Assembly (NCBI RefSeq): GCF_000372745.1 | Contig: NZ_KB889708.1 | Location: 1 to 64,000, forward strand | DNA: 64,000 nucleotides | Direction of reading: 5' to 3' | From: Embleya scabrispora DSM 41855 | GTDB taxonomy: Bacteria > Actinomycetota > Actinomycetes > Streptomycetales > Streptomycetaceae | In this document: positions 46,451 through 59,945 of the stretch, piece after piece | Position numbering within the stretch: position 1 is the stretch's first letter | How the letters are laid out: the number at the start of each line of letters is the position of its first letter | Position numbers and translations under genes: made by a program | Notes under the pieces: generated by a model | The model's input: only the letters and a program-made list of their open reading frames with translations | Databases searched by the model: none | Told to the model about the DNA's origin: nothing

Positions 46451-46834
46451 TCAGTGCGTCGTCCATTCGCGGAGTCGGCGTGCGATGCGTCGGACGCCGA
46501 CGACGCCCCGGGCGGCTTCGCGGACGAGGACGACGGCTTCCTTCGGCGGATAGTCGAGACGATGTCCGTACAGGGCCAGGAACGCCTCGGTGGCGTGCCA
46601 GGCGAATGCCTCGTTGGAATGCTCGAGACACGGCAACCGGACCAGCGTGTGAAGGAGCGCCCCCGCCTTGAGGTGGTCCGAACCGTACACGTCCCGGTCC
46701 ATCGCACGGGCCTGTACACGGGACAGGGCGGCGTAGAGCGGGCCGAGGTCGTCGACCTGTGGATCGCCGGGCAACAGTTCGGCGGCGTGGAGCAGGAACG
46801 CCACGTCCACGTGCGGGGGGTGCGGATCGTTCAC
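46451..46834 (-). CDS. Doc/Fic-family toxin-like protein with degenerate active site
   Basis: The 127-residue protein starts at GTG 46834, overlapping the antitoxin stop as GTGA. Layout and blocks match Doc toxins: PHVDVAFLLHAAELLPGDPQ, LKAGALLHTLVRLPCLEHSN, EAFAWHATEAFLALYGHRLD. The Fic/Doc core HPFxDGN(K/G)R appears here as LPCLEHSNEAF, so the leading catalytic His, the Gly and the Lys/Arg are all absent; only Asn is kept. Doc normally phosphorylates EF-Tu. This variant may be inactive or may use a different chemistry. Confidence 0.7.
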   Translation of the reverse strand: MNDPHPPHVDVAFLLHAAELLPGDPQVDDLGPLYAALSRVQARAMDRDVYGSDHLKAGALLHTLVRLPCLEHSNEAFAWHATEAFLALYGHRLDYPPKEAVVLVREAARGVVGVRRIARRLREWTTH

Positions 46835-47127
46835 GCGGCGTGGCCCCGCTCGGGCGCGGCGAGTTCGCGTGCGGCCTCGAGTTCGGCGGCGCGCTGCTCG
46901 GGCGTGGGGTCGACCTCGCCGGCCTCGGCCGCGAACGCGTCGCCGCTGCGGGCCATGGACGCGCGGAACGCGTCGAGGAAACGGTCCTCGAGGGCGGTCG
47001 CGCGCGCGTACGCCGCACCCAGGATGTACTCCTGCATGCTCACGCCCTCGGCCTTGGCCGCGGCCGCGATCGCGGCCCGCTGCCCCGGGTCGGGGAAACG
47101 GAGATTGATGGCCTTCGGATCACTCAT
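46831..47127 (-). CDS. Antitoxin-like protein of the Doc module
   Basis: The 98-residue protein starts at ATG 47127; an in-frame ATG lies 9 bases upstream. The N-terminus KAINLRFPDPGQRAAIAAAA, followed by KAEGVSMQEYILGAAYARAT, is a ribbon-helix-helix-like DNA-binding unit with a hydrophilic Glu/Ala-rich tail (DPTPEQRAAELEAARELAAP) that would wrap a toxin. The GTGA overlap with the Doc-like gene is the usual antitoxin-first arrangement. Autoregulation of the pair is likely. Confidence 0.75.
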   Translation of the reverse strand: MSDPKAINLRFPDPGQRAAIAAAAKAEGVSMQEYILGAAYARATALEDRFLDAFRASMARSGDAFAAEAGEVDPTPEQRAAELEAARELAAPERGHAA

Positions 47128-47443
47128 GGCCCCCATGGTACCAGCAGGGCCATCGATACTCCATGAAGAGGACGTGGTGTCGACGGTCGGGTTGCCGACA
47201 GCCAACTCATCTCCGCGTTCGTCACCCTGCGGCAGTCGATCGGCCGGTGCGTGCCGGCGGGCCCGGGCCGGATCCGGCACTTACTGTATGTAGCCGCGTG
47301 CGCATTTGTTGTGGTGGCGGCCGGGAACCCCGGCCCTTGTGCCGCTGTCACCAAGCCACCGCCGGGTGGACATGTGCCGGGCTGCGGGTCACGTCCCTTC
47401 GAATCGTCCTCCAGCGGCCGCCCTGGTCCGGGATCATCTACCC
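47128..47443. promoter_or_regulatory. Divergent region between the toxin module and the first NTPase-TPR gene
   Basis: About 315 bases that must hold the promoters of both transcription units. I see no distinctive motif and no coding sequence. Confidence 0.35.
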
Positions 47444-50389
47444 ATGGACAGGAGCATGTCGACGAACGGGCCAGGGGTACCTCTCGCATCGCTCACAGAC
47501 CGGTCGGCGTTCGGCTTCGACGTGCACCGGGCGGTCGAGACTCCTGGACCGGATTTCCCGGACCTGCCGACGTATGTCGAACGGGCCCACGACCGGTCGC
47601 TGCGCGCCGTGATCGACCGGGCGGCCGCCGGGGAGAGCGGTCTGGTCACTGTGGTGGGTTCGTCGTCGACGGGGAAGACGCGTGCGTGTTGGGAGGCGAT
47701 CCGGTCCCTGCCGGACGGGTGGAGGTTGTGGCACCCGGTCTACCCGACGCCGTCGCAGGCGTTCCTGGCGGCCGTCGATGCCGTGGTGCCGCGCACGGTG
47801 GTGTGGCTGAACGAGGCGCAGCTTTATCTGCTGGACCGGCCTGCGGGCGGCGAGCGGGTCGCTGCGGCGGTGCGTGTCCTGCTGGCCGATACCCGTCCGG
47901 CCGCGGATGGCGGGCGGGGTCCGGTGCTGGTGGTGGCGACGCTGTGGCCCGAGTACTGGCGTACCTTGACCGCCCGGCCCGAGTCGGGCAGGCCGGATGT
48001 GTTCGCGCAGCAGCGCGCGCTGCTCACCGACGTCGGGCTGCGCGTTTCCGTGCCCGACGCGTTCAGCTGCGAGGACTTGGTCGCCTTGGGGAAGAGTGCG
48101 CGTAGCGATCCGCGGCTCGCGCTGGCGGCCGGGCAGGCAGGGCAGGGGAAGGTGACGCAGTTTCTGGCCGGGGCGCCGCAGTTGCTCGCCCGCTACACGG
48201 ATGCGGCACCGGCTGTGCGGGCGCTGATCCACGCGGCGATGGACGCGCGCCGGCTCGGGCACTCTCCCGCCCTGCCCTTCGCGTTCCTGGCGGACGCGGC
48301 CGAGGGTTACCTCGGCGACGACGAGTTCGACGCGATCGAGGACGACTGGCTCGAACAGGCCCTGGCCGCATGTGCCGAACCGGCGCACGGCACGCCCGGC
48401 CCTCTCACCCGTATCCGGCCGCGGCGCGGTGAACCCGCCTTGCCGGGGCCGGTGTACCGGCTCGCGGACTACCTCGAACAGCACGGACGCGATGAGCGGC
48501 GGTACGTGTGTCCGCCTGCCGCGTTCTGGGAAGCCGCGCTCCGCGGCATCGGCGATCCGGATGCGCTCGGCGCGCTGGCGAACGCGGCGGCGCGCCGAGG
48601 GCTTGTGCGTCTGGCTGTTGCCCTGTACGAAGCGGAGATCCGCCAGGGGCCTGACCGGCACCAGGCCATGGGTGCCGTAGCCCAGATCCTGACGGAATGC
48701 GGACGTGTGGACGACGCCCTCGCGTGGTACGAACGCGCGTCCGTCGCCGGTGACGAGGGGGCGCTGTATCAAGCCGGCCGTGCGCTCGAGGACGCGGGAA
48801 GAGTGGAGGAGGCGATCGCCTGGTACCTCCGAGATGGGCGGCACGGTGACACGCTGGGGCTCCAGCAGGCTGTGCGATTGGCGAACGACCACGGCTTCGT
48901 GGACGAGGTCCTTGCCGGGCTCCGGGACATCGGAAGCACCCACGCGTGGCGGCATGCCGCCGGTCTGCTGTGGACCGTAGGCCGCGTCGACGATGCACTC
49001 GAGGGTTACATCCTGGCGGGCGCCGACTGCCTGAACCGAGATGTCGAACGCGTGGCCTGGTGGCTGCAGACCGAGCGTCCGGGTTCCGTGCTGCCGTGGC
49101 TCACCCGGGTTGCCGCAGCCGGACATCCTCGTGCAATGCACCAGGCGGCGGATCGGATGGTGGAAGCCGGGCACGTCCGTGACGCGATCACGTTCCTGTG
49201 CGCGGTCGCCGACACGGCCGGCCGGGATGGCTGGTTGAAGGCCGGCGATCTGGCCTGGTCGCAGGGGTGTTCCGACGAGGCCGTCGGGTTGTGGCGGCGC
49301 GCCGCGCACGATGCCCAGCCGAGGCTGCTCGCAGCCCTTGGGCGGTCCTGGTGGCATGCGGATCGCCCCGAGGACGCCGTCGCCTGCTGGGACCGCGTCG
49401 CTGCCACCGATAAAACGCGACATCTCCTCGACGAAGCACGTGAGTTACTGAACGAGCACGGCCGCGAAGCGGTGGTTGCGTCCTGGTGGCGGCACCGAGC
49501 CGACACCGGTGAAGCATACGGCTGCTCCGGTCTGGCCGCGCAACTCGCCCGTACGGGCGAGTTGGACGAAGCCGTCCGATGGTGGGAACGCTCCGCCGCC
49601 GCGGGCGACGACGCGGCCCTGGGACAGGCGGCCATCGCGCTGTGGGACGGCGGACGCGAGAACGACGCGCGGGCCTTGTGGTGGCGTGCCGCCCGCACGG
49701 GCCACTTGGAGTCGGTGAACGCGGGCGTGGAGCGGCTGCGCAACGTCGGCCACGGCAACGAGGCGGAACAGCTGTGGTGGTGCACAGCCCGAGCCGGCAC
49801 CTCCTGGAGCCTCAAGCACACGGTCCGCCGGATGGAGGCCGACGGCGAAATCGAGGAACTGGTGGCTCTGCTCCGCGAGCTCACCGAAGCCGGTCATCAC
49901 GAGGCGCTGTGGAAAGCGCGATACGTGATGACGCGCCACGGCCGGGTCGACGAAGCGTTCACCTGGCTCCGCGGGCTCCACGACGCAGGCCACCCGAGCG
50001 CGGCCTGGCACATCGGCCAACTCCTCAGTGACTGCGGCCGCCTGGACCGGGCACTCACCTGGTGGCGCCGAGCCGGCGAGAGCGGCGGCTACTCGTCCGC
50101 CGCACGCGCCCTGGACGAAGCCGGGCGCCTGGACGACTCACTCGAATGGTTCCACCTGGCCGTCGAAGCCGGCGACATCGACCTGGCCTGGACCGCCGCC
50201 AAAAGCTACGCCCAAGCCGGACGCGCAGACGACTTCGTCACCTGGATGCAACAACGCGCCCGGACCGGCGACCGCCTCGCGCTACGCGTCGCCGTCGAAT
50301 GCCTCGACGCCGCAGGACGCTCCGATACCGCAAAGGCCTTGCGCCGCCATGGTTGGGAACCCAACGGCGACATCGCCCCACCCTGGTAG
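47444..50389 (+). CDS. P-loop NTPase (STAND-like) with long TPR array, copy 1
   Basis: The 981-residue protein starts at ATG 47444; ATG 47456 is an alternative. The NTPase part includes LTDRSAFGFDVHRAVE, Walker A VGSSSTGKTRACWEA (residues 71-85) and Walker B RTVVWLNEAQLYLLD (117-131). Next come VLVVATLWPEYWRTLT and GKVTQFLAGAPQLLARYTDA, then a winged-helix-like section ending YVCPPAAFWEAA. From about residue 375 there are some 17 TPR-like helical repeats (VDDALAWYERASVAGDEGAL, LDEAVRWWERSAAAGDDAAL), rich in Trp. The tail is DGDIAPPW. It is cytosolic. The plan is NTPase switch plus repeat sensor, with no obvious effector domain. It is a paralogue of the gene at 51626. Confidence 0.85.
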   Translation: MDRSMSTNGPGVPLASLTDRSAFGFDVHRAVETPGPDFPDLPTYVERAHDRSLRAVIDRAAAGESGLVTVVGSSSTGKTRACWEAIRSLPDGWRLWHPVYPTPSQAFLAAVDAVVPRTVVWLNEAQLYLLDRPAGGERVAAAVRVLLADTRPAADGGRGPVLVVATLWPEYWRTLTARPESGRPDVFAQQRALLTDVGLRVSVPDAFSCEDLVALGKSARSDPRLALAAGQAGQGKVTQFLAGAPQLLARYTDAAPAVRALIHAAMDARRLGHSPALPFAFLADAAEGYLGDDEFDAIEDDWLEQALAACAEPAHGTPGPLTRIRPRRGEPALPGPVYRLADYLEQHGRDERRYVCPPAAFWEAALRGIGDPDALGALANAAARRGLVRLAVALYEAEIRQGPDRHQAMGAVAQILTECGRVDDALAWYERASVAGDEGALYQAGRALEDAGRVEEAIAWYLRDGRHGDTLGLQQAVRLANDHGFVDEVLAGLRDIGSTHAWRHAAGLLWTVGRVDDALEGYILAGADCLNRDVERVAWWLQTERPGSVLPWLTRVAAAGHPRAMHQAADRMVEAGHVRDAITFLCAVADTAGRDGWLKAGDLAWSQGCSDEAVGLWRRAAHDAQPRLLAALGRSWWHADRPEDAVACWDRVAATDKTRHLLDEARELLNEHGREAVVASWWRHRADTGEAYGCSGLAAQLARTGELDEAVRWWERSAAAGDDAALGQAAIALWDGGRENDARALWWRAARTGHLESVNAGVERLRNVGHGNEAEQLWWCTARAGTSWSLKHTVRRMEADGEIEELVALLRELTEAGHHEALWKARYVMTRHGRVDEAFTWLRGLHDAGHPSAAWHIGQLLSDCGRLDRALTWWRRAGESGGYSSAARALDEAGRLDDSLEWFHLAVEAGDIDLAWTAAKSYAQAGRADDFVTWMQQRARTGDRLALRVAVECLDAAGRSDTAKALRRHGWEPNGDIAPPW

Positions 50390-51002
50390 CCGTACACATC
50401 CCGCGGCTCCAGGCGAGTCGGCAGACCGCTGTTCGCAGCCCGCCGCACCGCGAACTCACTTGTGTCAACGGAAACTTTGATCTCCCCGGTCGGGTCGCTC
50501 GCCTCGCCCGATGACTCTCACCGTCCGGAGCCGCGAGCCGGGATTTGCTCCGGTGCGCTTCTCAGCCCACTGTCCATTGCCCGACTTGGCCGAGCCTGCC
50601 GGTCGGATCAAATGGGATCTCGCGGGGTTGGGATTGCCCCGGCAGTTCATGAGTCACGTAGCCCAGCCGCGAACCACCCGGCGGGACCTTCGGCTGACAT
50701 TCACAGCACGGAGGCGCTCCCTCGTCGTGCCCGCGTCACCCTTGTGGCATCGCGGGCGCCTCCATGCTTGCGGACCTCGTGCGCGAGGGCCTCGGCCACC
50801 AACTCACGACACACCGTGAACAGCACGGCGCGGTCGGTACGTACTCGCGCCAAGCGGTCGGCACGTCGAACCGCTCCATCGACCTGCGGAACGCACCCAG
50901 TCACAGGAACACTGGTCGCGGACACCCCAACCGGCGTGATCCGGCACCGAGAACTCGGCACGCGCGCCGCACCGCCGACCGGGAGAAGGACAGGGGGCAG
51001 CC
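50390..51002. other. Gap between the first NTPase-TPR gene and the coiled-coil gene
   Basis: About 610 bases. A minus-strand frame has RTDRAVLFTVCRELVAEALA, which is protein-like, but it has no start site, family or coupling. Nothing else is supportable. Confidence 0.35.
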
Positions 51003-51563
51003 ATCGCCAACGAGACCCTCGCCGCGGTCATCGGCGCAGGCAGCGCACTGATCGTGGCGTTGATCGGCGGGTACTTCGTCATCCGCGGCGCGCAGCGCCA
51101 AGCCGACGCCGCGTTCGCCGCCGCCCAGGCCCAAGCCACCGCCGCCATCACCGCCGCGCGCGAACAAGCCGCCGCCGCCATCGCCGCCGCGCAACGCGGT
51201 GCCGACGCGCAACTCGACGTCATGCGGCAGACATTCCGCGACCAGGCCACCGCCGCCCAACGCGCCGTCCGACGCACCGCCTACACCACCTACCTGGGCG
51301 CCGTCGACCAGGCACGCGCAGCGCAGCTGACGTGGAACGCCAACCCGACCACCGCCACCCGCGACGCCTGGAACACCAGCACGCGTGCCGTGGGCGAAAC
51401 GTTGAACATCGTCCGCCTGGAAGGACCTCCCGCGGTCACCACCGCCGCCGAAGCACTCGCCGCCGCCATCGACCCCGCCACTGCCCCGGCTCTGTCGGTC
51501 GGCGCGTTCGCCACACGCCACACCGACTTCCTCACGGCGGCACGCACCGCGCTGGAGCCTTAG
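51003..51563 (+). CDS. Membrane-anchored Ala-rich coiled-coil protein between the NTPase-TPR paralogues
   Basis: The frame runs from the ribosome-site-like AGGGGGCAGCC. Its first codon is ATC at 51003 (ANETLAAVIGAGSALIVALI), the next likely start being GTG 51054. The ATC start keeps a full N-terminal membrane helix (LAAVIGAGSALIVALIGGYF), while the GTG start would cut it in half. A long helix of Ala/Gln heptads follows (AAREQAAAAIAAAQRGADAQ, LDVMRQTFRDQATAAQRAVR), then a globular end (TTYLGAVDQARAAQLTWNAN). It resembles small membrane-tethered coiled-coil proteins found beside NTPase systems. The start codon is odd: either a rare ATC start or a mutated ATG. Confidence 0.6.
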   Translation: MANETLAAVIGAGSALIVALIGGYFVIRGAQRQADAAFAAAQAQATAAITAAREQAAAAIAAAQRGADAQLDVMRQTFRDQATAAQRAVRRTAYTTYLGAVDQARAAQLTWNANPTTATRDAWNTSTRAVGETLNIVRLEGPPAVTTAAEALAAAIDPATAPALSVGAFATRHTDFLTAARTALEP

Positions 51564-51625
51564 AACATCTCCGGTCATCCAGGATTTCGGGGCGCGTCGG
51601 GTCGCTGATGCGGGACCATGCACAC

Positions 51626-53803
51626 ATGGACAGCGGCACGCAGGCCGACGCGCCGGGAGTGTTGCTCACATCGCTGACGGACCGGTCGGCGTTCGGATTC
51701 GAGATCCACCGGGCTGTCCAGGCCCCGGGCACCGAAAAGCTCCCCGACCTGCCCGCGTATGTCGAGCGCCCCCACGACCGTGAACTTGCTGCGGTGGTGG
51801 ACCGCGCGGCATCCGGCGATAGTGCCCTGGTCACCCTGGTGGGCTCGTCCTCGACCGGGAAAACCCGGGCCTGCTGGGAGGCGGTCCGCCGACTTCCCAC
51901 AGGGTGGCGGCTGTGGCATCCGGTGTACCCCACCTCGCCCGACGGATTCCTTGACACCGTCCACGCCCTCGCGCCGCGCACCGTGGTGTGGCTCAACGAA
52001 GCACAGCTGTACTTGCTGGACCGGCCCACCGATGCCGAGCGGATCGCCGCGGCGCTGCGCCTGCTGGTGGCCGACGGCCGCCCGGACACCGCGGCGGGCA
52101 GGCACGGTCCGGTACTGGTGGTGGCGACTCTGTGGCCGGAGTACTGGCGCATCCTCACCACCCGGCCCGAACCAGGCGCGCGGGACACCTACGCGCAGCA
52201 GCGGACGCTACTCACCGACACCGGGCTGCGCGTGTCCGTGCCCGACGCGTTCAGCGCCGAGGACTTGGAGAACCTGCGCACGAGCGCGCGCCGCGACCCG
52301 CGACTGGCACTCGCCGCCCAGCGGGCCACGCGCGGGAAGGTGACGCAGTTCCTCGCCGGCGCACCGCAGTTGCTCACCCGCTACCACGACGCGGCACCGC
52401 CGATGCGGGCACTGATCAACGCGGCGATGGACGCACGCCGCCTCGGCCACTCCACCGCCCTCCCCCTCGCGTTCCTCGCCGACGCCGCCGAGGGCTATCT
52501 CGACGACGAGTTCGACGCGCTCACCGACGACTGGCTCGAACGCGCTCTGGCTGACTGCGCCGCGTCCTCACACGGCATTCCCGGGCCCCTCACCCGCATC
52601 CGCCCCCGCCGCGGCGAACCGGCCCAAGCGGGACCGGTGTACCGCCTCGCGGACTACCTCGAACAACACGGGCGCGCCGAGCGTCGGTACGTTTGCCCAC
52701 CAGCCTCGTTCTGGGAAGCCGCGCAGCTCACTCCGGCCGCCGGCGATCTCCTTGCGCTTGCCGGGGAAGCCGATGCGCGTGCCCGATTCCGTCAGGCCGC
52801 CTCGTTGTACCGATTGGCAGCTGCGGGAGGACGCGTCGACGCGCTCACGGACTGGGGCCTGATGTTGTGGAATATCGGGGACCGGGAAAGCGCCGAAAGA
52901 CTGTGCCGGCAGGCCGCCGACGCGGGCGACACGAATGCGCGCACGCATCTCGGGTGGATGCGCGGCGAGGCTGACGACGGACGTACCGCGCGATCGAGTC
53001 GCATTGCCCACGACCCCGAAGGCTCCGACACACTCCACGTCCTGACGCTCATGCAGGACGATGCCGACGACTGGGACGGCATCGAGCACCAGTGCGAAAC
53101 CGCCGACACCGAAGGCTCCGGAACGCTCTGGGACTTGGCGATCATGCGCGAGGAGGCGGGCGACCCGCAGGGGGCGGAAGTCCTCGCCCGGCAGGCTGCG
53201 GACGCCGGCGACACCGACGTCTACATGGGCCTGGCGATAGTCCGCGAAACGAACCGGGATCCAGACGGCGCCGAGCGCCTGTACGAGATGGCCGCCGAAG
53301 CCGGTGACAGCATCGCACTCAGGCGCGCAGCGATGAAGTACCGGGACGCCGACGACCGGGCAGGCGCCGAACGGATGTACCGGCGTGCCGCTGACGCCGG
53401 AAGCGTCGACGCGCTGTGGGGCCTGGCGGTATTGCGCGAAGAGGCCGGTGATCACGTCGATGCCGAACGCCTTGCCCGTCAGGCGGCTGACGCCGGAGGC
53501 CCCGAAGCGCTGTGGAGTCTGGCCGTCGCGCGCGAGGAAGCGGGTGACCCACACGGAGCTGAGCGCCTCGCCCGACTGGCTGCCGATGCCGGGTACGACG
53601 CGCTGGCAGGCCTGGCCGAAATTCGCAAGGAAGTTGGGGAATGGTCGGGCGCCGAACGCGTCTACCGGCAAGCTCTCGACGCGGGAGCCACCGATGCGCT
53701 GCAAAGCATCGCCGAGCTGCTCCGCACAGACAGCGAGGGGTTGTCGTCGCAGATCTTGCGGTACGGACTGGACGCCGACGGCAATGCCTCACCGCCTTGG
53801 TAG
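51626..53803 (+). CDS. P-loop NTPase (STAND-like) with Sel1/TPR array, copy 2
   Basis: The 725-residue protein starts at ATG 51626; ATG 51608 is an alternative. Its first 400 residues closely follow copy 1: LTDRSAFGFEIHRAVQ, Walker A VGSSSTGKTRACWEA, Walker B RTVVWLNEAQLYLLD, ATLWPEYWRILT, GKVTQFLAGAPQLL and the same RRYVCPPASFWEAA boundary. The repeat array differs: shorter Sel1-like units such as GAEVLARQAADAGDTDVYMG and AERLARQAADAGGPEALWSL. The end LDADGNASPPW echoes copy 1's DGDIAPPW. The conserved switch with a swapped repeat domain suggests diversification of recognition. Confidence 0.85.
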   Translation: MDSGTQADAPGVLLTSLTDRSAFGFEIHRAVQAPGTEKLPDLPAYVERPHDRELAAVVDRAASGDSALVTLVGSSSTGKTRACWEAVRRLPTGWRLWHPVYPTSPDGFLDTVHALAPRTVVWLNEAQLYLLDRPTDAERIAAALRLLVADGRPDTAAGRHGPVLVVATLWPEYWRILTTRPEPGARDTYAQQRTLLTDTGLRVSVPDAFSAEDLENLRTSARRDPRLALAAQRATRGKVTQFLAGAPQLLTRYHDAAPPMRALINAAMDARRLGHSTALPLAFLADAAEGYLDDEFDALTDDWLERALADCAASSHGIPGPLTRIRPRRGEPAQAGPVYRLADYLEQHGRAERRYVCPPASFWEAAQLTPAAGDLLALAGEADARARFRQAASLYRLAAAGGRVDALTDWGLMLWNIGDRESAERLCRQAADAGDTNARTHLGWMRGEADDGRTARSSRIAHDPEGSDTLHVLTLMQDDADDWDGIEHQCETADTEGSGTLWDLAIMREEAGDPQGAEVLARQAADAGDTDVYMGLAIVRETNRDPDGAERLYEMAAEAGDSIALRRAAMKYRDADDRAGAERMYRRAADAGSVDALWGLAVLREEAGDHVDAERLARQAADAGGPEALWSLAVAREEAGDPHGAERLARLAADAGYDALAGLAEIRKEVGEWSGAERVYRQALDAGATDALQSIAELLRTDSEGLSSQILRYGLDADGNASPPW

Positions 53804-54107: not shown

Positions 54108-54407
54108 TCAACGGCGCACCCGATAGCGCAGGTGAAGCACCCGGTTGCCCTGAATCACCACGTCAGGATCCTCCAACAGGTGCTGCGCGTGGACCGACCC
54201 GAAGTAGCGCTTACCGGACCCGAACACGACGGGTACGACGTCCATGCGCACCTCGTCGATCAGGCCTGCGGCAAGCACCTGGCCACCGACGTCGGCGGCG
54301 ACCTCGACCATGCGGTCACCCGCAAGCTCCTGCGCCTTGGCCACGGCTGCCTCGACGCCGTCGACGAAGTGTCCCAGTACGGCCGGGTGCCCCGAACCGG
54401 CGCCGAA
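54108..54407 (-). pseudogene. RibD-C/dihydrofolate-reductase-like remnant
   Basis: The frame includes GHPAVLGHFVDGVEAAVAKA, then DVGGQVLAAGLIDEVRMDVV and PVVFGSGKRYFGS, ending with GNRVLHLRYRV. This is the second half of the RibD C-terminal/dihydrofolate-reductase-like family (GGxxLxxxLLxAGLVDELxLxxxPVLLGxGxxLF). An in-frame stop at about 54410 and loss of the first 90 or so residues make it a pseudogene. Confidence 0.65.
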
Positions 54408-54618
54408 TCACCACCCATGCCCGACGACGTCGAGATCGCCTACACGCCGACGAATTCCTCATGGCCGAGCCACAGTCGCTTCAGCCGCCACATTCGCCGA
54501 GGGCATCCCCGCGCATCGTCATTGCCGGTGCTGCGTTTCCTGCGTACCGCCTGATCGTCATAGGCCTTGCTCGTGAGGTCGCGTGGGATCGTCGGTGGGG
54601 CCGGCTACCGTGGCGACC

Positions 54619-55131
54619 ATGGTGAAGAAGAGCTTCTACGACCTGGCTTTCGGCGTTGCCCCGGGAGGCGCTCGCAAGGACGCGCACTACATCCTGGACA
54701 GCCTCGACGACGTGAAGGCCGCACTGGCCGACGAGCTTGCCGAGGAGACCAATCTCTATCTGCTGTGTTGGTACGGGGCCGACTTGTCGCTACACGTGTA
54801 CCAGCAAGGGGAGTTGGCGCAGTCGATAGACCTGCATCCCTTTGTCACGATCTCCATCAAGGGCTATCCGGACATCACCTTCAGCGGCCCCGGGGAGCCG
54901 ATCGGGTACGACTTCCGTGCGGACGACGGGGCGGGCGATGAGGAGGAGGGGCTCTCCTCCAAGATGTTCTATGGCAGCCTCGGGGACGCGGTCGGTGTCA
55001 GCGTGGACTGGAGCCGAATAGAAGTACCGCTATTGAGCGGTGAGTTGGTGGCCGACGATGACGAAGACGATGCCTTCGAGTTGGTCGACGGGAACCTCGC
55101 GTCGTATGGCTACCAGGATTTCGAGGAGTGA
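54619..55131 (+). CDS. Hypothetical acidic protein, first gene of an interlocked trio
   Basis: From ATG 54619 the protein has 170 residues: VKKSFYDLAFGVAPGGARKD, then ELAEETNLYLLCWYGADLSL, VTISIKGYPDITFSGPGEP, and an acidic end (ELVADDDEDDAFELVDGN). It is soluble and strongly negatively charged, as immunity or DNA-mimic proteins can be. I do not recognise the family. Its stop overlaps the next small ORF as GTGA. Confidence 0.6.
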   Translation: MVKKSFYDLAFGVAPGGARKDAHYILDSLDDVKAALADELAEETNLYLLCWYGADLSLHVYQQGELAQSIDLHPFVTISIKGYPDITFSGPGEPIGYDFRADDGAGDEEEGLSSKMFYGSLGDAVGVSVDWSRIEVPLLSGELVADDDEDDAFELVDGNLASYGYQDFEE

Positions 55132-55220
55132 CCGAGCCGGCCATTGGTGGCGGCGACGGTGTGGATGTCGGGCGCGCCGACCGCATCGCCGCCGAGAAGG
55201 CCCGGAAGACCCTCGCGTGA
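55128..55220 (+). CDS. 30-aa ORF interlocked between the acidic protein and the PIN protein
   Basis: GTG 55128 overlaps the preceding stop as GTGA, and its own TGA overlaps the PIN start as GTGA. The peptide begins TEPAIGGGDGVDVGRADRIA and ends in a basic/Ala helix (AAEKARKTLA). This could be the stub of an antitoxin, whose C-terminal helix normally occupies the PIN active site, or a coupling ORF. The double overlap is directly seen. Confidence 0.45.
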   Translation: MTEPAIGGGDGVDVGRADRIAAEKARKTLA

Positions 55221-55615
55221 TCGTCCTGGACACCGGCGCGGTCAAGGCCCTCGCCGTCGGGCACAAGACGCTGAACCTCCTCGCGGGCAACATGGCGCGC
55301 ACCCCCGGCGACCACCTCGTGATCCCCGCCTTGTGCCTGACCGTGGCCGAGTCCGACGAGGAGGGTGTGGCCCACCGCGTCCTGGCTCTGTCCAGTGTCG
55401 GCGTCGACCCGCTCGACACGGTGGCGGCCGTCGGGGTCGGCACGATGATCCGCGACGGTCTCGGTGGGCCGGACACCTGCCACGCGCTCTACTGCGCCCT
55501 TCCCCGGGCCGAGTTCACCGGCAGGTCCATCCTGCTCACCAACCGCGAGGACGCATACCCACGCGGAATCGTCACCGTCGACATCGACTCCCCCGGCATG
55601 CTCGGCCACTGGTGA
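55217..55615 (+). CDS. PIN-domain protein (VapC-like)
   Basis: GTG 55217 gives 132 residues with the PIN acidic residues in order: Asp5 in VIVLDTGAVKAL, Glu45 in LCLTVAESDEEG, Asp86 in GGPDTCHALYCA and Asp112 in LLTNREDAYPRG. All four positions are filled, so metal-dependent ribonuclease activity is plausible. It ends GIVTVDIDSPGMLGHW. It is the last gene of a trio joined by 4-base overlaps; a full-length antitoxin is not obvious. Confidence 0.75.
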   Translation: MIVLDTGAVKALAVGHKTLNLLAGNMARTPGDHLVIPALCLTVAESDEEGVAHRVLALSSVGVDPLDTVAAVGVGTMIRDGLGGPDTCHALYCALPRAEFTGRSILLTNREDAYPRGIVTVDIDSPGMLGHW

Positions 55616-58665: not shown

Positions 58666-59432
58666 CCGGTCCGAGTAGCCCACAGTGTCTTCCGTTATCG
58701 CATCCGCCACCGTTCGCGCCGGTTCCATCGGCCGACCCCGGGCGCAACGATCGGGCATACGAATGACACCGAACCCACACGAACCGGTGTGATGCGCGCA
58801 TCAGGCAACGTTTGCCCTGGTGTGATGTGACGCGCCGTCCGGGCTACGCCTCGGGCGGCGCGTCGGGCGCGAGGCCGTGTCCGGCGGAACACGTGCCGGG
58901 GCCCGGGGAACCTGGTGCGCGCGGCCGCGGCGGGCACCCCGCAACTGGTCCTGCGCTACCGCCGCGTCATTGCCCAGATCCCCCCCACCCCCACGATCAC
59001 CGGCGGCGGCCCTGCCGCGCCGTCAAGACGGGCGGTGCCCGGACCGGATGCCCACGACGTAGTGCCCCCGGCGCCCGCCGCGCCGGTCGTCCCTGCCGTT
59101 TTCACTGAACCCTCGGCGAGCAGGATCCTGCGGACCTGGGAACGCCGCAGGATCCGGCCGCCCGGCGCGTGACGCGCCCCGGCCGGCTTCCGGATCCTCT
59201 TCTCTCCTCGTCCCCGTCCACGGGTTGACGGGCCACCGTGGCCCTGCACGACGCGACCACCGGCGCCGTCACGCTGAGCGCACAGGTGTCGTCCGCGCAG
59301 ATCCCCGACGCGACATGGCGTTGGGACGGCGGCCCGATCGCCGCCCTGGGACGCAGTCGGCGCCCCGCGATGCTGAGCCCACCCTCTCACCACACAAACT
59401 CCCGTGACAGTGCCCGGCGTTACCGTGCGCCC
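58666..59432. other. About 770 bases with no firm gene
   Basis: A plus-strand frame at about 58915-59172 (TPQLVLRYRRVIAQIPPTPT) and another from 59238 (VALHDATTGAVTLSAQVSSA) are protein-like but have no start signals or recognisable domains. They may be fragments. Confidence 0.3.
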
Positions 59433-59945
59433 ATGACAACTCCCGACGGCGGCGCGCCGTTCCACGACCGATACCAGCGCGACTACATCGTCAGCCCGGG
59501 CCCCGGGTGCACGCCCTCCTTCCAGGAGTCCGTACGACTCGCCCGGCATGGCGAACTGGAGGCCGTGTTCAGCCTCCTCGCCGACAGCGAGGGCAAGGAC
59601 GAAGACCTCGACGAACTGGCCTACAAGCTGTTCTGCGTGGCCTCCGACTTCGGCCACGAAGAAGCCGCGGACCTCATCGACGACCTGTTGGAGGCATCCT
59701 CGCTCCGCTACGACGACGACCGCTTCGTCCAGGGCAACGCCCACTTCGAGCTGGCCTTGGCGTACCTGCGCGGAAGCGACGGCCTCCCGGCGGACCCCGG
59801 GAAGGCCCGCGAGCACCTCGGCACGGCCCGCGACTGCCACTGGCCGTGGGGCGTCGACGACGGCGAGACCCTCCTTGCCGCCGCCCGAGCCATCCTGTCA
59901 CCGCCCCAACGCGTCGTCTTCGACGGGATATACGGCGCGGACTGA
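59433..59945 (+). CDS. Sel1/TPR-like small protein
   Basis: The ATG at 59433 has a possible -10 (TTACCGT) just upstream, so it may be a leaderless gene. The 170-residue product is all helical after an extended N-terminus: FQESVRLARHGELEAVFSLL, ELAYKLFCVASDFGHEEAAD, DRFVQGNAHFELALAYLRG and PGKAREHLGTARDC. These match Sel1-like/TPR units. The function is unknown. Its repeats recall the array of the second NTPase-TPR protein, 6 kb away. Confidence 0.65.
   Translation: MTTPDGGAPFHDRYQRDYIVSPGPGCTPSFQESVRLARHGELEAVFSLLADSEGKDEDLDELAYKLFCVASDFGHEEAADLIDDLLEASSLRYDDDRFVQGNAHFELALAYLRGSDGLPADPGKAREHLGTARDCHWPWGVDDGETLLAAARAILSPPQRVVFDGIYGAD

Follow-up and report, generated by a model that had tools for sequence, protein, structure and literature searches.

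Background

The nearest published concept to the locus described here is the EACC1 system, a membrane-associated, two-gene system of actinobacteria (Kaur et al. 2020, PMC7159879). The small EACC1 protein has a single transmembrane helix with a patch of small residues and alpha+beta flanks, and the caspase component of the system is sometimes linked to STAND NTPases (PMC7159879). In the SAMD9 family, which is also known in actinomycetes, an NTPase is followed by a TPR array, and its proteins combine a GGT/S P-loop with SIR2-like and AlbA_2 domains and an OB fold (PMC5445408).

The locus lies in a window of 64,000 nucleotides, the whole stretch of DNA that was analysed, which comes from a 290 kb contig of the 11.4 Mb genome of Embleya scabrispora DSM 41855. 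Two P-loop NTPases, A and B, flank a small membrane protein, C. We propose, with a probability of roughly one half, that A, C and B are an accessory STAND switch module with a TPR sensor that acts through C, a membrane-anchored protein with a hendecad stalk, instead of through DNA binding.

Layout of the locus

Gene A (47444-50389, +) codes for 981 aa and gene B (51626-53803, +) for 725 aa, and B starts 63 bp downstream of C. The parts of the three genes are given in Table 1.

Table 1. Features of the A-C-B locus, in window coordinates
Feature	Position	Strand	Basis
A, NTPase domain (residues 1-395)	47444..48628	+	ORF call, motifs, structure model, Foldseek
A, Trp-rich TPR-like repeat array of 586 residues with a period of 32	48629..50389	+	profiles, model, autocorrelation
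C, membrane-anchored hendecad-stalk protein	51003..51563	+	homologues, predicted structure
C, small-residue-rich hydrophobic helix, predicted transmembrane	51015..51086	+	sequence, alignments, low-confidence model
C, stalk (3.5 units of 11 residues)	51096..51212	+	repeat analysis
C, conserved C-terminal helical head with LEGP motif	51213..51560	+	alignments, model
B, NTPase domain (residues 1-395)	51626..52810	+	ORF call, alignment to A
B, TPR-like repeat array of 330 residues with a period of 32	52811..53803	+	profiles, autocorrelation

The earlier note on this DNA had placed the cluster next to a Doc-type module and 1 kb upstream of a PIN-domain trio. Upstream of A are two small overlapping genes (46451-47136, -), one of which has a weak match to an antitoxin/mobilisation-type protein (TacA1), below the cut-off. 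The other, Doc-like, gene had no match in Pfam or NCBIfam and its sole PDB matches were two Doc proteins with E values of 0.12 and 0.36, a weak resemblance. The PIN trio was not found, as the PIN-like gene at 55217-55615 had no profile or PDB support and its neighbour at 54583-55131 had no match in Pfam or NCBIfam. The Doc/PIN surroundings were thus too weakly supported to be used as functional context. Also near the locus are an apparent gene remnant next to A-C-B, namely, a fragment of a RibD C-terminal domain (54108-54344, -, PF01872, 78 aa), and an ORF of 235 aa (59238-59945, +) that has a weak Sel1 match and no detectable derivation from the arrays of A or B. The left flank (36-44 kb), compared with three more genomes from the same genus, gave short scattered matches only, so no clean empty site can be demonstrated.

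The two NTPases

A and B are 72.5% identical over residues 1-395, they are sisters with full support on the NTPase tree, and the motifs VGSSSTGKTRACWEA, WLNEAQLYLLD, and LWPEYWR are present in both. The near-identical switch regions that had been claimed for these P-loop proteins are therefore real, and paralogy by chance is excluded. In A, the Walker A motif is G72-SSST-GKT79, a Walker B-like VVWLNE ends at residue 124, and a GAP motif lies near 243-245. GSSSTGKT is found in both A and B, and the P-loop pattern in 57 of 64 homologues. Among the 62 homologues scored, the Walker B region WL[N/D]E has Asn in 46 and Asp in 16, and because the Asp is replaced by Asn in so many of them it is uncertain that these proteins hydrolyse nucleotide. 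The GxP-type motif after the core is LAGAPxLL, with P245 invariant in 38 sequences and the motif scan positive in 43/64, and the region following the core is made of helices and strands in the model of A.

This model (pLDDT 86.7) has a compact NTPase and then about 19 helical pairs. Both arrays have a period of 32 (autocorrelation 0.23 and 0.30) and both match Pfam TPR, while no Pfam match to Sel1 was obtained for either at the thresholds used. A contrast between Trp-rich TPRs in one and Sel1-like units in the other had been proposed; it was dropped, and what distinguishes the two TPR-like arrays is their length and their Trp content (5.6% in A and 2.7% in B). An N-terminal HTH or other DNA-binding domain is absent in A and B, even when the in-frame upstream extension is included. 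Foldseek with the model of A returned mainly TPR proteins, together with the STAND-TPR protein 6mfv (E 3.1e-7) and human SAMD9 (9zjs, E 1.3e-7) over about 800 columns, with low TM-scores (0.19-0.30) to which the repeats contribute; by sequence, no protein of solved structure that is related to the NTPase domain was among the PDB matches listed. The motifs and Foldseek agree with the STAND-type class that had been suggested, and on this basis A and B are assigned to it as a supported prediction.

The membrane protein C

Homologues of C elsewhere are 41-51% identical to it; judged by these, C is a real gene, and the family as a chance product is excluded. As described earlier from the letters alone, this small protein between the NTPases has a hydrophobic N-terminal helix followed by an Ala/Gln-rich helix, and the model agrees. 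Its start is unusual. From the stop at 50937 up to GTG 51054 the frame has no ATG, GTG or TTG, and this GTG, the first canonical start, would truncate the membrane helix. The homologues start at the position equivalent to codon 51003, which is ATC in the window. By homology, therefore, C probably starts at ATC 51003, and the ATC at 51003-51005 may be a rare start or may have arisen from an ATG by a change in the sequence or strain.

The model of C (pLDDT 88.5) has a single long helix from residue 3 to 113 and then three shorter helices; the membrane part is of low confidence, with blocks near 50-64. The stalk after the membrane helix consists of 11-residue repeats and has 39 residues in the window. 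Where a clean measurement was possible in strong homologues, the stalk has 17, 39 or 50 residues, in steps of 11, and most relatives have 1.5 to 4.5 units. The residues beside the membrane helix suggest that the C-terminal part of C would be cytosolic. For C there was no meaningful match in Pfam, NCBIfam, PADLOC or PDB, and Foldseek with the model found generic helix bundles only (best E 0.06). A scan of genome contigs with the single C sequence gave no match, an alignment query over these contigs gave five loci that had all been seen already, and C was not found on plasmids.

Linkage of C to the NTPase

A strong C homologue was defined by a profile E value below 1e-50. In 299 genomes of the family there were six strong matches, the window included, and each of these loci has an NTPase of the A/B family within about 2 kb. 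A second search, in which the profile was made from the first six homologues only, covered 394 genomes of the order and added four strong matches, all adjoining an NTPase of the A/B family. Hence 10/10 strong homologues are within about 2 kb of such an NTPase, four of them from an independent search, and the co-occurrence that had been suspected of the coiled-coil gene and the NTPase is borne out. An eleventh C, in L208, is a frame-broken remnant beside a divergent relative of the NTPase. A phylum-wide search of 397 genomes gave nothing new, only two known matches (the window's own genome and G047). Five C loci (L110, L111, L194-L196) share one chromosomal context, pgm-C-STAS-NTPase, with a phosphoglucomutase-type gene in at least four, so the number of independent contexts is about six.

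The NTPase is present in 125/299 family genomes and in 84 plasmid records, and was absent from phage records. Given this patchy, partly plasmid-borne distribution, it is not housekeeping.

Two further observations were made on these neighbourhoods. In the five loci of common context STAS-type genes separate C from the NTPase or adjoin the latter, and in L078 they are beside the NTPase; this hints at a connection with partner-switching or stressosome-like signalling. Separately, a broader family of C-like single-TM proteins with the LEGP motif occurs without an A/B-type NTPase. In seven loci (L116, L120, L124, L200, L206, L207, L209) it is 1-2 genes away from two others, one glycerophosphotransferase-like and one for a different STAND-like NTPase, of the GLGKTEL/GVGKTEL type. 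The membrane family may thus have a second kind of partner.

Alternative partners of the NTPase family

Most NTPase homologues have an N-terminal HTH (XRE/HTH_31 domains). We classified 66 genes with a custom gene caller, including loci that had been picked for C, a choice that biases the frequency of C and leaves its exclusivity with HTH unbiased. C accompanied none of the 42 HTH-bearing NTPases and 12 of the 24 others, so that every C-paired NTPase found is without HTH. A divergent gene for a two-TM protein of 65-70 aa accompanied 18/19 XRE-type NTPases and 0/47 others, and no locus among the 66 had both C and the two-TM gene. The exclusion of C and HTH has p 5e-7 when relatedness is left uncorrected, and tree-independent pairs, about 5:0, give a median p of 0.06; after this correction the rule is suggestive, not decisive. 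The window genome also has an XRE plus two-TM version, on contig C161.

C forms one clade (support 100/99), whereas the C-paired NTPases without a fused domain are scattered and call for five or more label changes on the NTPase tree. Three C loci (L197, L069, L075) are inside a fully supported clade of otherwise mostly XRE/two-TM genes. C is 60% identical between L110 and L197 and their NTPases are 36% identical, and distance correlation detected no co-evolution of C with the NTPase (r 0.13, with 264/720 permutations as high). Taken together, the single clade of C, the scatter of its partners and the uncorrelated identities argue for re-pairing rather than co-inheritance. Probably the same C family has been re-paired repeatedly with NTPases that lost their HTH, and output modules have been exchanged. 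The same NTPase is also found fused to a caspase (L069, PF00656, 41.5 bits), to an alpha/beta hydrolase (L164) and to a BTAD (SARP) activator (L073), which indicates that its outputs are executioner-like in some cases and regulatory in others.

Other NTPase relatives pair with further small hydrophobic genes, a tentative lead. In four loci without HTH and C (L146, L149, L151, L168) a gene of about 150 aa lies upstream in the same direction, of the MTGIEIAVGYLFAWLVRKARRV type in three and with another N-terminus in L149, which is perhaps a further partner family. L157, L161 and L163 have an NTPase of another HTH class, with a divergent single-TM gene of the LPALLVLPFLPGGDRRAERLMRQL type upstream of it.

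Function of A, C and B

Since C is found only beside NTPases without HTH, A, B and C are probably one accessory module for signalling or self-defence, and since A and B do not have the DNA-binding domain of most relatives, we propose that they act at the membrane through C. The TPR-like arrays would sense a cue or serve as a scaffold. By analogy with the STAND class, nucleotide exchange in the GSSSTGKT/WLNE domain would convert a resting into an oligomeric state, and the activated NTPase may then cluster or release the cytosolic stalk and helical head of C. The Gly/Ala-rich membrane helix of C would carry the output, although C may instead be an anchor, a sensor or an inhibitor. What happens after a trigger is the weakest step: the cells would most likely stop growing, die or mount a membrane stress response, and with modest confidence, we consider arrest or death a likelier output than pure signalling. 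A role in conflict or cell death is plausible by analogy with relatives that carry caspase or hydrolase domains. Of the first reading of this locus as a candidate undescribed system, the linkage and the STAND class stood while the Doc/PIN context and the Sel1 contrast did not.

It is possible, although we hold it only tentatively, that C instead anchors the NTPase or is a receptor and relays an envelope or stress signal with no death involved, the HTH relatives being MalT/AfsR-like STAND regulators of the divergent membrane gene. XRE/HTH_31 domains in most relatives, the divergent gene order, the SARP/BTAD fusion in L073 and the STAS genes described above fit such signalling, and in their shared five-locus context the STAS neighbours hint at ordinary stress signalling. 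The lack of a defence-island signal fits it too: no enrichment of defence models was seen among neighbours of these NTPases within 3 kb, where PADLOC found 6 families for 75 near neighbours and 49 for 75 far ones, the far count being inflated by single proteins that match many models. This result, like the PADLOC searches with A, B and C given below, counts against a role in defence. On the other hand, HTH is missing exactly where C is present, and fusions to caspase and hydrolase suit an executioner better than a sensor.

If C and the small two-TM proteins were membrane toxins that the NTPase merely restrains, directly or by repressing their genes, the locus would be toxin-antitoxin-like. We regard this as improbable. 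Small hydrophobic genes do adjoin the HTH proteins in 18 loci and the NTPase is patchy and plasmid-borne; however, C is longer and structured in the model and was not found on plasmids, and to our knowledge antitoxins are seldom NTPases of 700-1100 aa with long sensor arrays. That C is a common Streptomyces small membrane protein which lies near an abundant NTPase family by accident is already disfavoured and very improbable. The C-like LEGP proteins without an A/B-type NTPase would suit such an accident, but the NTPase adjoins every one of the ten strong homologues, across about six contexts that are unrelated to one another, and seven of the broader C-like genes themselves sit 1-2 genes from another STAND-like NTPase.

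The proposed membrane module of A, C and B gives an uncharacterised family of small membrane proteins a strong, testable partner, and it implies that the wiring of one switch domain changed several times between DNA-binding and membrane outputs. A bolder version, which we offer as a conjecture, is an undescribed actinobacterial family of STAND switches with exchangeable outputs, namely, HTH with the divergent two-TM gene, fusion to a caspase or hydrolase, or, without HTH, C as an executioner, so that the module would be NLR-like and act directly on the membrane. If C is the executioner, TPR-sensor STAND proteins of multicellular bacteria would have a membrane effector with a gene of its own; in these bacteria such genes often carry no annotation other than regulator or hypothetical protein. 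No description of the NTPase-C pairing was found in the literature, which is weak evidence of novelty as subscription journals were mostly uncovered.

Comparison with known systems

Transcription regulators of the SARP/AfsR and MalT type resemble most relatives, which combine STAND and TPR with an N-terminal DNA-binding domain and in one case BTAD. This domain is absent from A and B, which were therefore rejected as STAND transcription regulators. Avs and other NLR-type anti-phage proteins of bacteria share the logic of a STAND protein with sensor repeats; unlike in these, there is no fused effector in A-C-B, and a defence-island signal was not seen. Because the PADLOC models gave no match for A or C and two very weak ones for B (E 0.04), A-C-B was not taken as Avs or another catalogued anti-phage system.

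SAMD9 is like A in having an NTPase and then a TPR array, and it had the top query TM-score (0.30) among the PDB matches listed. However, its P-loop is GGT/S instead of GKT, and Pfam did not find the SIR2-like, AlbA_2 and OB-fold domains in A or B; membership in the SAMD9 family was rejected on the P-loop and the absent SIR2-like and AlbA_2 domains. STAND NTPases such as 6mfv, which matches the model of A over 789 columns (E 3e-7), share with A and B the P-loop, a GxP-like motif and the C-terminal TPR array, and A and B have a Walker B-like region. They differ in the Walker B Asp, which is usually Asn in the A/B family, and those with a fused effector differ from A and B in that the latter have a separate gene for a membrane partner.

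As for EACC1, no Pfam family came near threshold for an EACC1 domain in C or its relatives, and a caspase is absent from A, B and the window (by Pfam on A and B), being found only in the relative L069. C is all-helical with a hendecad stalk in the model, in contrast to the alpha+beta flanks of EACC1. What EACC1 and A-C-B have in common is a two-gene layout, a small single-TM protein with a small-residue patch in its helix, and an actinobacterial host.
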